From: Chloroflexota bacterium | GTDB taxonomy: Bacteria > Chloroflexota > Dehalococcoidia > Lucifugimonadales > SAR202-VII-2 | Reading direction: 5' to 3' | Length of the DNA: 64,000 nt | Assembly: GCA_003228115.1 (NCBI GenBank) | Contig: QEVV01000001.1 | Coordinates: 558,001-622,000, forward strand | In this document: positions 5,712-30,763 of the stretch, one piece after another | Layout: each line of letters opens with the position of its first letter | Position numbering within the stretch: position 1 is the first letter of the stretch | Position numbers and translations under genes: made by a program | Notes under the pieces: model-generated | Seen by the model: only the letters and a program-made list of their open reading frames with translations | Told to the model about the DNA's origin: nothing | Database searches by the model: none

Positions 5712-6324
5712 GCCTCGATCTAACTGAAAGCCTACGGAAGAAAGCGCCGGAGGTAAGTTGCTGCGGCTCGGTGCGGTCTGCCAGTTCCCACTTTCCCGCT
5801 GATTCCAACTCAGCGAACTTCTCCTTGAAGCCCGCTTCCTCATATGACGGAACTGAAAGCGTGAAGGCCACGTGGCCGCCAGGTTTTGTGACTCGGACCA
5901 GTTCATCGAAGGCGCTGGCCGGGGCGTGGGCTTGCGTAAATACGCCGACCGCGACCACCGCACCGAAGCTGCCGGTCTCGAAGTCCAAGTGCTCGCCGAG
6001 GGCCATGCGGCGTGCATCCTTATACACGCCCTTGCTTCGGGCCACATCCAGCATTCCCTCCGAAATGTCCATAGCCACGAGGTCGCCATAGCCAGCCGCA
6101 GCGAGCGCCTCGCCCGACAGCCCTGTCCCAGCACCAGCATCAAGGATGCGGGCGTCCTTGGAAACGAACTGGCTGACCAACTCAGCGATCAGTGCAGGGG
6201 CTCGGTATTCGTGGGTGGTGGTCACATCAGCGTCGTAGTCGCCAGCCCACTGGTCATAGCGCTCTTCTAGCTCTTGGTCGTTTGGGGTCGAGTATATCCA
6301 CTGGATTCGGTTCTGCTCGTCCAC
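5302..6324 (-). CDS. class I SAM-dependent methyltransferase; C-terminal about 130 aa are antisense to the cupin gene and probably not native
   Basis: ILDAGAGTGLSGEALAAAGYGDLVAMDIS SAM-binding motif; expected family end is near 5730 but no stop occurs in frame. Confidence 0.7.
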   Translation of the reverse strand: MDEQNRIQWIYSTPNDQELEERYDQWAGDYDADVTTTHEYRAPALIAELVSQFVSKDARILDAGAGTGLSGEALAAAGYGDLVAMDISEGMLDVARSKGVYKDARRMALGEHLDFETGSFGAVVAVGVFTQAHAPASAFDELVRVTKPGGHVAFTLSVPSYEEAGFKEKFAELESAGKWELADRTEPQQLTSGAFFRRLSVRSRPSQERLRRRTCRGRARQEWRRSCWLGRGRGGHCRLDQSGRLCRSSCRGSPRCRYLPAALPGYPRRCSGSCRAHPWVSSCPRSCLPPSCCRLRRKRWPGLPRPRRRGPLWCGREGRFRHPQRRPLHASTGRWCRPGV

Positions 6325-6374: not shown

Positions 6375-7043
6375 CTACAGCGTGATCTCCCCCAAATCAT
6401 CAGCGGGCGTGAGCGGAGCGCCCGTCTGTGCCTGGATTTCTTCGTAGGTCCAGCCAGGGGCCATCTCCTTGAGCACCAGGCCCGAGGGCGTCACCTGGAT
6501 CACCGCCAGGTCGGTGACGATCAGGCTGACGCAGGCCTTGGCTGTCAGCGGATAAGTGCAGTCCTTGACGACCTTGGGGTCGCCGTTGCGGTCGTTGTGC
6601 TCCATGGCGGCAATGACGGTCCTTGCCCCGACGGCCAAGTCCATAGCCCCGCCGACGTTGCCGATGCCCCGTTCGGGAATCAGCCAATTGGCAAGGTCCC
6701 CCGCCTCCGAGACCTGGAGAGCGCCCAGCACTGTGACGTCGATGTGGCCGCCGCGGATCATGGCGAAGGAGTCAGCGGAATGAAAGAAGGACGATCCTGG
6801 CAGCAGCGATATGAACTGGCCGCCTGCGTTGATGAAATCGAGGTCCTCTTCGCCCTCGGGGACCAGCGGGCCGTAGTTGAGCACTCCGCTCTCCGAGTGG
6901 TAGATGACCGTGCGGCCCTCCGGCAGGTAATTGGAACAGAGGGTGGGTATGCCAATGCCCAGGTTCACCACCATGCCGTCCTGGAACTCGCGGGCAACGC
7001 GCATCGCAATGATGTCACGGTCCAATCGATCCTTGGTAACCAT
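6375..7043 (-). CDS. CoA-transferase subunit B (3-oxoacid CoA-transferase-like)
   Basis: GIGIPTLCSNYLPEG...YHSESGVLNYGP (catalytic Glu segment), GGHIDVTVLGALQV. Confidence 0.85.
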   Translation of the reverse strand: MVTKDRLDRDIIAMRVAREFQDGMVVNLGIGIPTLCSNYLPEGRTVIYHSESGVLNYGPLVPEGEEDLDFINAGGQFISLLPGSSFFHSADSFAMIRGGHIDVTVLGALQVSEAGDLANWLIPERGIGNVGGAMDLAVGARTVIAAMEHNDRNGDPKVVKDCTYPLTAKACVSLIVTDLAVIQVTPSGLVLKEMAPGWTYEEIQAQTGAPLTPADDLGEITL

Positions 7044-26939: not shown

Positions 26940-29690
26940 ATGGTTCTTCAGCCCACCAAATCCCTCTTCGCCGACGACGAGCAGCCGCTCCTTCTCCTGA
27001 TGGACGGGCATGCTTTGGTCCATCGAGCATTCCACGCAATCACGACCTCTCTCACCATTCGAAAGACCGGCGAGGAGGTGCGCGGCGTCTACGGCTTCGC
27101 CAATACGTTCCTGAAGGTGCTGGAAGACCGCCGTCCCACGCACTGCGCCATAGCCTTCGACCTGCCCACACCCACCATTCGGCACAAGGCTTTCGCCGCC
27201 TACAAGGCGCAGCGGCCATCAATGCCAGACGACCTTCGGGGGCAGTTCCCTTGGATCAAGCAACTCTTGGAAGCCTTCCAAGTCCCCATCTTCGAGATGG
27301 ACGGCTATGAAGCTGACGATGTCCTGGGCACACTCTGCCGCCTAGCCGAAGAGAAGCGGGTGCAGACCCTGATTCTCACCGGTGACACCGACACACTCCA
27401 GCTCGTGTCTCCGTGGGTTCGGATCTTGATGTTCATGAGCGGCCAAAACCAGGTGATCTTTGACGAGGTGAAGGTCGCAGAACGGTACGGGGGTCTCACA
27501 CCCTTCCAGCAGCCCGACGTGAAGGCGCTTCAGGGCGACTCCTCGGACAATATCCCCGGGGTTCCGGGGATTGGGGCCAAGACGGCCATCAAGCTCATCC
27601 AGCAGTTCGGTAGCATTGAGGGTCTTTACGACCACCTGCCTGAAGTGGAACCAGTCAGAATCCGCCAGACCCTCGAAGAAAACAAGGATGCTGCTGTGCA
27701 GGGCAAATGGCTCACCACCATAGTGCGGGACCTGCCCTTGGAATTGGACATGGAGGCCTCGGCCTTCTGGAAGTACGACCGCCAAGATGTGTTGGCCCTG
27801 CTACGGGAATTGGAGTTCAACAGCATCGTGCCAAGAGTTCCCGAGGGAAAGCGCTCGGCCAATGGAACGCCCACTCCACCAATCGCCGTGGCCGAAGTCG
27901 ACTACGTCACTGTCGACACTCCCGACAAGCTAGAGAAGATGGTAACCAGCCTTCAACAAGCAGGCTCATTCGCCTTCGAGGCGGAGACCACCGGTCCCCA
28001 GGCAATGAACACCGACCTTGTGGGGCTCTCCTTTGCCCCTAAAGAGGGACAGGCCTTCTACCTGCCCCTAGCCCACGAGGAAGGTCAACAGCTCCCCAAG
28101 CGCGAAGCACTCGAGACCATCGGCCCTTTGCTTCATGACCCCGCCCTAAAGAAGACCAGCCACAATGCTCAGTTCTCTATGACAGTGCTCGGAGAAGTGG
28201 GCATTGCAGTGGAGGGGCTGGAGCAGGACGTGATGATCGCGGCGCATGTGCTAGGAGAGAAGGCCGTTACCTTGAAGGGCTTGGCGTTCGGCCGCCTCAA
28301 CGAGGAACTGACCCCCCTGACTGAATTGACGGGAACGGGGAGGAAGCAGGTAACGCTGGCCCAGGTACCCGTCGAGAAAACGGCCCAATATGCCTGTGCC
28401 AATGTTGACATGGCGCTGCGGCTCCAGGACCTCTTCAATATCGAGTTGAAAAAAGACGGCCTAACTCACATTCTCGACGACCTCGAAACACCCTTGGTTC
28501 CCGTGCTAGTGCAGATGCAACGGCATGGCATTGCTCTGAACACGGAGTTATTGGCGACGATGTCGGAGAGCCTGGGCACACAGTTGGCGCGCCTGGAACA
28601 GGAGTCCTACGACGCAGTGGGGCATATGTTCAACATTAGCTCGCCGCAGCAACTGGCTGTGCTCCTCTATGAGGAGTTGAAGCTGGCGAAGGGGAAGCGC
28701 ACGGCCAGCGGAGGCTACTCCACCGACGCTGCCGCATTGGAGAACCTTCGGGGAGCCCATCCCGTCGTTGAATCTGTTCTTGAGTACCGGCGCCTCAGCA
28801 AGCTGAAGTCCACCTACGTGGATGCCCTGCCCCTGCTGGTAAACCCCCGCACCGGCCGGGTACACACAACGTACAACCAAGCAGGATCAGCGACGGGCCG
28901 GGTGGCCAGCAGCGACCCCAATCTGCAAAACATCCCCGTAAGAGACGAGGATGGCCGCTTGGTACGAAATGCCTTCGTCGCCGAGGGTGCCCCTGAATGG
29001 ACGCTCCTGGCAGCGGACTATTCGCAGATTGAGCTGCGCGTTATGGCGCACCTCTCAATGGACCCCGGGCTACTGGAGGCCTTCCGCCGGGACGAGGACA
29101 TCCATTCGGCAACGGCGGCTCTCGTGCACAATGTGCCCTTGGACCAAGTCACCTCTGGCATGCGACGTCTGGCTAAGGTAATGAACTTCGGAATCATCTA
29201 CGGCCTCAGCGCCTTCGGCATCGCCCAGCAGACAGAGCTTTCTCCTGACGAGGGGACGGTCTTTATCAAGAACTATTTCGAGAAGTACGCCGGCATCAAG
29301 CAATACATCGATGAAACCAAAGAGCAGGTACGCAACCAGGGGTACGTTGAAACCCTTCTGGGCAGGCGTCGTCACATTCCTGAAGTTAGTTCCAGTAACT
29401 TCCAGGTCCGCCAAGCTGGGGAGAGGATGGCAGTGAACATGCCCGTCCAGGGCACAGCGGCGGACATCATCAAGATTGCCATGGTGCGCCTCTATGAAAC
29501 GATGCGCCGCCTGAAGCTGCGGAGCCGCATGCTCCTCCAAGTCCACGACGAACTGATCTTCGAGGTGCCTCAGGAAGAGTTGGAGGAAATGCAGGGCTTG
29601 GTGCTGGACATCATGCCCAAAGCCATGGAGTTGGCGGTACCCCTCAAGGTAGACCTCAAAAAGGGCGACACCTGGGGAGAGATGGAGTAG
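26940..29690 (+). CDS. polA: DNA polymerase I
   Basis: 5'-nuclease domain (LLLMDGHALVHRAFHA; GDSSDNIPGVPGIGAKTA) and polymerase motifs (ADYSQIELRVMAHLS; RRLAKVMNFGIIYGLSAFG; QVHDELIFEVP). Confidence 0.97.
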   Translation: MVLQPTKSLFADDEQPLLLLMDGHALVHRAFHAITTSLTIRKTGEEVRGVYGFANTFLKVLEDRRPTHCAIAFDLPTPTIRHKAFAAYKAQRPSMPDDLRGQFPWIKQLLEAFQVPIFEMDGYEADDVLGTLCRLAEEKRVQTLILTGDTDTLQLVSPWVRILMFMSGQNQVIFDEVKVAERYGGLTPFQQPDVKALQGDSSDNIPGVPGIGAKTAIKLIQQFGSIEGLYDHLPEVEPVRIRQTLEENKDAAVQGKWLTTIVRDLPLELDMEASAFWKYDRQDVLALLRELEFNSIVPRVPEGKRSANGTPTPPIAVAEVDYVTVDTPDKLEKMVTSLQQAGSFAFEAETTGPQAMNTDLVGLSFAPKEGQAFYLPLAHEEGQQLPKREALETIGPLLHDPALKKTSHNAQFSMTVLGEVGIAVEGLEQDVMIAAHVLGEKAVTLKGLAFGRLNEELTPLTELTGTGRKQVTLAQVPVEKTAQYACANVDMALRLQDLFNIELKKDGLTHILDDLETPLVPVLVQMQRHGIALNTELLATMSESLGTQLARLEQESYDAVGHMFNISSPQQLAVLLYEELKLAKGKRTASGGYSTDAAALENLRGAHPVVESVLEYRRLSKLKSTYVDALPLLVNPRTGRVHTTYNQAGSATGRVASSDPNLQNIPVRDEDGRLVRNAFVAEGAPEWTLLAADYSQIELRVMAHLSMDPGLLEAFRRDEDIHSATAALVHNVPLDQVTSGMRRLAKVMNFGIIYGLSAFGIAQQTELSPDEGTVFIKNYFEKYAGIKQYIDETKEQVRNQGYVETLLGRRRHIPEVSSSNFQVRQAGERMAVNMPVQGTAADIIKIAMVRLYETMRRLKLRSRMLLQVHDELIFEVPQEELEEMQGLVLDIMPKAMELAVPLKVDLKKGDTWGEME

Positions 29691-29692
29691 GG
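29655..29692 (+). repeat. direct repeat copy 1 (polA 3' end)
   Basis: ctcaaaaagggcgacacctggggagagatggagtaggg; 37/38 identical to 30195-30232. Confidence 0.97.
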
Positions 29693-29729
29693 TCCGTACC
29701 AAACCTGCCACCGCCGAGGTTCCCGGAAA

Positions 29730-29957
29730 ATGCCCGAACTGCGAAATGTACGGCCGGAGGATGCGATCCAGGCCTTCAGCCAGGCTGGTGGTCTTGTCCG
29801 GTGGGGCAAAGGCAGCCACATGAACATCAAGATGCCAAACGGGCAGATCGTGACCATTCCGGTGGGGCGAGGGCCGGTTAAGCAAGGGCTGCTTCGGGCG
29901 GCCATTCGTAAGGCCGGAATTACTGAAGCCGAGTACATCCGGCTTCTGGAGGCATAG
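29730..29957 (+). CDS. hicA: HicA family mRNA interferase toxin
   Basis: 75 aa; VRPEDAIQAFSQAGGLVRWGKGSHMNIKMPNGQIVTIPVGRGPVKQGLLRAAIRKAGIT. Confidence 0.92.
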   Translation: MPELRNVRPEDAIQAFSQAGGLVRWGKGSHMNIKMPNGQIVTIPVGRGPVKQGLLRAAIRKAGITEAEYIRLLEA

Positions 29958-29958
29958 C

Positions 29959-30174
29959 ATGGAATATTTCTTGATAATTCACGCGGCGGAAGAAGGCGGC
30001 TACTGGGTAGAAGTACCCGCTTTGCCGGGCTGTTTCGCACAAGGTGAGACCATTGAGGACGCGATTGAAGACGCCCGCGAGGCGATCCCTTCTCATAGGG
30101 AAGCCCTCCGAGCGGAGGGGCAAGACCTTCCCAATGAACACATTGTTGTCGCGACCACAGCCGTGGAGGGGTAA
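29959..30174 (+). CDS. hicB: HicB family antitoxin
   Basis: EYFLIIHAAEEGGYWVEVPALPGCFAQGETIEDAIEDAREAI. Confidence 0.92.
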   Translation: MEYFLIIHAAEEGGYWVEVPALPGCFAQGETIEDAIEDAREAIPSHREALRAEGQDLPNEHIVVATTAVEG

Positions 30175-30194
30175 AGCACACCCTCGCGCTGCCT

Positions 30195-30232
30195 CTCAAA
30201 AAGGGCGACACCTGGGGAGAAATGGAGTAGGG
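30195..30232 (+). repeat. direct repeat copy 2 (duplicated polA 3' end)
   Basis: ctcaaaaagggcgacacctggggagaaatggagtaggg, exactly 540 bp downstream of copy 1. Confidence 0.97.
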
Positions 30233-30235
30233 AAG

Positions 30236-30763
30236 ATGGCTAGGCGTGAGAGCAGTATCTGTTTCGCATTCGAAGGGGCTACCTACCAGGTATTCAAAGT
30301 GGTGGAGGTTCTAAGGGATAGGAACCCCCAGGTGGTAATTGCCTTCGCACAGTCCGACGATGAGCATGTCTCTCTTCACCAGCAAGACCATACCATCCTG
30401 AAAACCCACTATGATGCGCACAAACCATCTTCAGGCTGGTATCAGAGCAGAATTGAAGCGGCCCTGAGCATGGGCTTGCGGAACCCAAGCAGGCACGGTT
30501 CATATACTCATCAGATCCCCCTTTTGAGCATTGCAAACGTCAAGGGGCACTATCTGTTGGGAAAGCGAATCGAGCTCAAGAGTCTCGTTGTGACGAAACG
30601 GAAGAAATGTCAGACACTCTCCGCTCCTTCCCAGAGTTTCTGGGTGGATCTCTTCCTGTCCACCCAAGGCAACTACCACGACGGAGGAGCCTTCAGAATC
30701 GCCACCTTCCTGGGGGAAGTCTCAGGGGATGTGGCTATCGATGGCCCGATAACTAGTGCGTAG
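30236..30763 (+). CDS. hypothetical protein
   Basis: ORF track begins at 30044 but ATG 30236 lies directly after repeat copy 2; no recognised family. Confidence 0.55.
   Translation: MARRESSICFAFEGATYQVFKVVEVLRDRNPQVVIAFAQSDDEHVSLHQQDHTILKTHYDAHKPSSGWYQSRIEAALSMGLRNPSRHGSYTHQIPLLSIANVKGHYLLGKRIELKSLVVTKRKKCQTLSAPSQSFWVDLFLSTQGNYHDGGAFRIATFLGEVSGDVAIDGPITSA

Follow-up and report, generated by a model that had tools for sequence, protein, structure and literature searches.

Direct repeats of a gene 3′ end, by which the interrupted gene is restored, are typical of site-specific integrative elements. Insertion with long target duplication has been described for restriction-modification (R-M) systems (Nobusato et al. 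2000 Gene, as cited in PMC3874152, PMC1643837 and PMC3031569), where the duplicated target measures roughly 100 bp (PMC3874152). A model comparable to the stacking discussed below comes from homology-facilitated illegitimate recombination and the immunity-gene arrays of Vibrio T6SS loci (PMC5361080, PMC3240628), and integron cassette arrays carrying toxin-antitoxin (TA) modules have been reviewed (PMC2654758). How solitary TA modules of chromosomes can move in the absence of transposases has yet to be settled, and the pattern described here hints at a route. In a Chloroflexota genome, a hicAB cassette has the intact polA on one side and a truncated polA 3′ end on the other; partial gene ends beside TA cassettes recur among uncultured relatives of the same taxonomic order. 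In the literature searched, we found no report of such a gene-end scar pattern for TA modules.

A hicAB cassette between two copies of the polA 3′ end

The window (the whole 64-kb stretch of DNA that was analysed) contains the 38-bp duplication claimed by the original prediction, with its two copies identical at 37 of 38 positions and offset by 540 bp from start to start (Table 1). Copy 1 is indeed the end of polA including its stop codon, since it is read in frame as the final 11 codons and stop of the 916-residue PolA (LKKGDTWGEME*), and the PolA proteins of relatives have the same C-terminal ending. The search for the 38-mer elsewhere, which had been proposed as a check, returned exactly two copies in the 2.78-Mb genome, both at the polA locus, and no other 38-bp repeat with at least 34 of 38 identities and a spacing of up to 5 kb is present in the window. 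A chance origin of the match is excluded, since no match was obtained in 100 shuffles. We also considered whether the polA homology of copy 2 reaches further upstream, where ...TLALPLKKG... can possibly be read, and rejected this as not significant, with 42 of 500 shuffles equalling it.

Copy 2 had been placed just ahead of the ATG at 30236. The measured gap is 3 nt, with 5 nt between the relic stop codon and this ATG, and the reconstructed empty junction therefore reads polA TAG-GGAAG-ATG. This arrangement of stop codon, 5 nt and start codon is plausible as the ancestral junction, and ORF30236 has likely kept its initial spacing to a polA stop.

The cassette is a predicted HicAB type II TA system, with hicB directly downstream of hicA and both genes above the curated family cut-offs. 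ORFs and Pfam matches agree with the earlier claim that hicA-hicB is the sole content between the copies; the 502-bp insert contains no integrase gene, and no inverted repeat bounding it was found. No comparable flanking repeats were found at the other hicA loci of the window genome.

Table 1. Features of the polA–hicAB locus in the window, and host gene ends duplicated beside cassettes at other loci
Feature	Position or locus	Strand	Evidence or remark
polA (DNA polymerase I, 916 aa), intact gene	26940..29690	+	ORF; PF00476, PF02739, PF01367, PF01612
Copy 1 of 38-bp repeat, functional polA 3′ end	29655..29692	+	stop TAG (29688-29690) plus 2 nt
Insert, 502 bp, hicA-hicB only	29693..30194	.	ends without a terminal motif common to other cases
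hicA toxin gene, 75 aa	29730..29957	+	PF07927, 30.8 bits, cut-off 27
hicB antitoxin gene, 71 aa	29959..30174	+	PF15919, 49 bits, cut-off 27
Copy 2, relic of polA 3′ end, unattached to any polA gene	30195..30232	+	37/38 identical to copy 1
Downstream ORF, 175 aa, without family	30236..30763	+	no Pfam match
uvrA 3′ end	L194		
glyS 3′ end	L233		
Prephenate dehydrogenase 3′ end	L171		
LLM monooxygenase 3′ end	L195		beside pair of unknown family, then HicAB
aroB 3′ end	L224/L335		
Galactonate-dehydratase-like 3′ end	L258		
MFS 3′ end	L276		
hicB 3′ end	L263		
tRNA-Gln 3′ end	L193		
pheT 5′ end	L217		mirror image
Haloalkane dehalogenase 5′ end	L284		mirror image
Alcohol dehydrogenase 5′ end	L351		mirror image

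The region downstream of polA in related genomes

Named relatives of the window's polA come from Chloroflexi, SAR202 and Dehalococcoidia MAGs. The polA 3′ ends and up to about 11 kb of downstream DNA were fetched from 100 genomes of the same order, all from other families than that of the window genome, and near-copies of the last 150 bp of polA were searched for in them. A second copy of the polA 3′ end was found in three (G037, G180 and G230), and hicAB directly after polA in only two. G037 and G180 belong to other families of the same order as the window genome. In G037, polA is followed by HicB-HicA, in a gene order opposite to that of the window, and then by an 86-bp copy of its own polA end with 88% identity. 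In G180, polA is followed by an antitoxin of HicB type (UPF0150 family), then by a frame-broken stretch that resembles HicA by eye only and has no Pfam match, and then by a 42-bp polA-end copy with 81% identity. The cassettes of the window and G037 are far diverged, with 22/72 (HicA) and 18/54 identical residues. We do not claim polA as a special HicAB hot spot, the enrichment in the first kb being small.

The third genome, G230, carries no hicAB at this position; its polA is followed by a retropepsin-like gene (R), a 196-bp copy of the polA 3′ end with 87% identity, a gene X of no known identity, a second retropepsin (R′) and a gene H. Its congener G229 has polA, one retropepsin (R) and the next gene (H) only. 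G229 and G230, which lie outside the genus of the window genome, thereby give a partial parallel for the uninterrupted single-copy state at polA.

A small retropepsin-like gene (PF13650) was seen directly after polA in several members of one family (L133, L153, L095, L086, L109, L098 and L104), in two copies in L104. Further observations downstream of polA are three tandem HicB-HicA pairs in L133, about 6.1–8.1 kb past the gene, and a gene for a highly repetitive Gly/Met/Asp-rich protein in L162.

Gene-end duplications beside other TA genes

We have surveyed 80 HicA, 30 BrnT and 30 ParE loci, with 30 acetyltransferase loci as the control. Repeats bracket the focal gene in 8/80, 4/30 and 3/30 of the TA loci, respectively, that is in 15/140 against 0/30 of the controls (p = 0.047). 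In addition to these counts, for each of 152 TA cassettes the 400 bp to its left were aligned with the 400 bp to its right. An alignment score of at least 44 was reached by 15/152 cassettes and by 7/433 shifted pseudo-cassettes, some of the latter being the same events as the cassette matches (p = 3e-5), and by none of the reverse-strand (0/152) or cross-locus (0/757) controls. After removal by hand of tandem TA paralogs and dispersed repeats, 10/152 cassettes were left, still above the control (p = 0.004). A detectable copy is missing at most TA cassettes (about 90%). A phylum-wide sample of 30 HicA loci gave one clear case (L351, from the same class), and four others resemble intergenic repeats.

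Several candidate brackets were set aside, namely dispersed intergenic repeats (L239, L267, L282, L300 and L210), tandem TA paralogs (L184 and L254), an 855-bp tandem duplication (L222), and a dense field of 30–130 bp direct repeats around a HicAB pair (L196).

The cassettes in the gene-end scars are of the HicAB, BrnTA and ParE-type families (Table 1). In eleven 3′ cases, the duplicate starts 36–135 nt before the gene end and stops between −21 and +26 nt from the stop codon; in the five youngest (92–98% identical), the similarity begins 36–98 nt ahead of the gene end and ceases −2, 0, 0, +2 and +26 nt from the stop. The 5′ copies of pheT and of the alcohol dehydrogenase gene begin at the start codon, and the DNA upstream is unrelated. 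One edge of the scar is at the gene boundary and the other at a variable point within the gene. The repeat is 38 bp long in the window and 40–128 bp in the other 3′ cases, the inserts are consistently about 0.5–1.2 kb, and no common motif was seen by eye at their inner ends.

Some of the gene ends are present in arrays. The glyS 3′ end occurs three times, with HicBA and ParE between the copies; aroB is followed by BrnTA, an aroB copy and HicBA; and the alcohol dehydrogenase 5′ end occurs three times, with HicA and a DUF433/DUF5615 pair between the copies. Two cases, L116 (GNAT) and L145, carry no known TA genes, and the mechanism is therefore not TA-specific.

Some further details were noted at individual loci. 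In L116, an upstream region and the first codons of an ABC ATPase-like gene are duplicated (5758-5890 and 6822-6953), and the duplicated gene start continues in frame into an acetyltransferase ORF. An adjacent ORF pair without Pfam match inside the stack of L195 (3326-3903) is a candidate new TA pair. L080 (6405-7998) has three partial repeats, two of which enclose a VapBC-like pair (PIN domain); this may be a further stack.

An allelic series at aroB

In genus g77, where the aroB protein is 95–97% identical, aroB is found in several states. G182 of this genus, and the outgroup G203 of another genus, have an uninterrupted single-copy aroB, with both BrnTA and the aroB copy absent. G185 and G186 have aroB-BrnTA-D without an aroB copy, and G184 has aroB-BrnTA with a 122-bp aroB 3′ copy. 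In G183 the order is aroB-BrnTA-(98-bp aroB copy)-HicBA-D, with the same D that directly follows BrnTA in G185 and G186. Each aroB copy most resembles the aroB of its own genome (8 and 6 differences of 98), and 16 positions differ between the two copies, which therefore points to either independent events or gene conversion.

Origin of the scar

From these comparisons, the scar is most probably (at roughly 60%) the product of stacking, in which two alternative alleles of the region downstream of polA were joined by one-sided homology and an illegitimate joint. Allele one would be polA-hicAB and allele two polA-ORF30236-fpg. DNA with one allele would enter through homologous recombination within polA, and the exchange would be closed by an illegitimate joint some tens of bases ahead of the polA end in the other allele, leaving a truncated polA tail between the cassette and the old neighbour and the PolA protein intact. 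Single-crossover integration of a circularised fragment of polA tail and hicAB could give the same product. Stacking is supported by the same polA layout with different cassettes in G037 and G180, and also by G230, since a doubled R is predicted by stacking and not by simple insertion. The allelic series at aroB, the arrays and the excess of flank-to-flank alignments at TA cassettes count in its favour too. It fits the repeats, the sharp edges at gene boundaries and the doubled retropepsin together. The similarities among the aroB copies, as they would fit gene conversion as well as independent events, are counted against it, and so are the many TA cassettes that show no copy, the lower count after curation (10/152) and the cases that carry no known TA genes.

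If recombination between the repeats removed the cassette, the cells would be exposed to the HicA toxin. A repeat structure otherwise prone to collapse may thus be kept because of TA addiction, and the same addiction would account for the excess of TA genes in structures that ought to be erased by recombination.

The alternative that survives best, although we consider it rather unlikely, is insertion with long target duplication, in which the cassette itself integrates close to the stop codon and 40–130 bp of the target are duplicated, through either a staggered break or a template switch in the backward direction. Such an insertion, with its precedent in the R-M systems, accounts well for the variable repeat lengths, the single intact gene copy and the use of both 3′ and 5′ gene ends, but it predicts neither that the similarity in young cases stops at the start or stop codon nor that G230 has two retropepsin genes.

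A local tandem duplication of the polA-end–hicAB unit, with most of the second unit deleted afterwards, would require no horizontal input. Its product at polA would look alike, and tandem TA paralogs do exist (L184, L254); however, neighbouring array units differ in TA family (HicBA/ParE; BrnTA/HicBA; HicA/DUF433-DUF5615), and duplication alone is therefore insufficient for the arrays. For the single case in the window we consider this origin very improbable.

Even harder to credit is the view that hicAB is all that is left of a larger site-specific integrative element whose attachment site was the polA 3′ end. Repeats that restore a gene 3′ end are what such an element would leave, and L193 lies at a tRNA-Gln gene. 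Against this, the insert has no integrase, repeat length varies, insert size is consistently small, and many unrelated genes and even 5′ ends are used. A constant attachment core is missing as well, the polA duplicates of three genomes starting 36, 38 and 75 nt ahead of the polA end. In 97 of the 100 relatives, no polA-end repeat is present in the downstream DNA fetched (at most about 11 kb), and an integrase-bearing element between two polA 3′ ends was seen in none so far. Neither a 540-bp circle that excises itself nor a site-specific integrase has any support. A DDE transposon or IS was rejected, there being no inverted terminal repeats, no inner-end motif by eye and no fixed repeat length; since integrase and inverted terminal repeats are lacking, repeat length varies and targets are many, neither a transposon, an IS nor a site-specific element fits.

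The original prediction of an integration or recombination scar, with a TA cassette that enters at the gene end and leaves the C-terminus intact, gains support from polA in G037 and G180, from the many other genes and from the aroB alleles. It had also held that hicAB and both repeats in all relatives, with vertical divergence and no empty-site allele, would speak against such an entry; hicAB directly follows polA in only 2/100, and these are different HicAB cassettes.

It is tempting, if somewhat short of an even bet, to regard allele stacking combined with toxin addiction as a general route by which TA genes colonise and accumulate in Dehalococcoidia-type Chloroflexota chromosomes without transposases, with the truncated gene ends as its fossil record. 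With a scar that can be recognised by an edge at a start or stop codon and a second edge some tens of bases into the gene, TA movement would become countable, datable and comparable between genomes. The scar reading also predicts that TA modules protect direct repeats otherwise liable to collapse.

Comparison with known systems

As a HicAB type II TA system, the cassette of the window is ordinary, both genes matching the HicA and HicB families above curated cut-offs; its position and scar are what is distinctive. We judge the locus to be a genuine recombination scar that belongs to a wider pattern. It is best classed among the variants of insertion with long target duplication, and the pattern links TA systems to that of the R-M systems. 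In both, an addiction module is found in long, variable direct repeats of host sequence (~100 bp) with no linked mobile element. In contrast to the R-M cases, the cargo here is type II TA (HicAB, BrnTA, ParE-type and VapBC-like) in Chloroflexota, the similarity ends at gene boundaries, and arrays of different TA families are stacked at single gene ends.

On the stacking reading, the Vibrio T6SS arrays would share with the present scars a homologous anchor on one side, an illegitimate joint on the other, older genes pushed outward and relic 3′ ends. Their anchor is within the effector locus itself, whereas here it would be the adjoining housekeeping gene, and the cargo is an intracellular TA system. 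Like the integron arrays, where DNA rich in repeats can be protected from loss by TA cassettes, the stacks described here combine TA genes with repeats, but they have no integrase and no common recombination site, and each array is built on the end of its own host gene.
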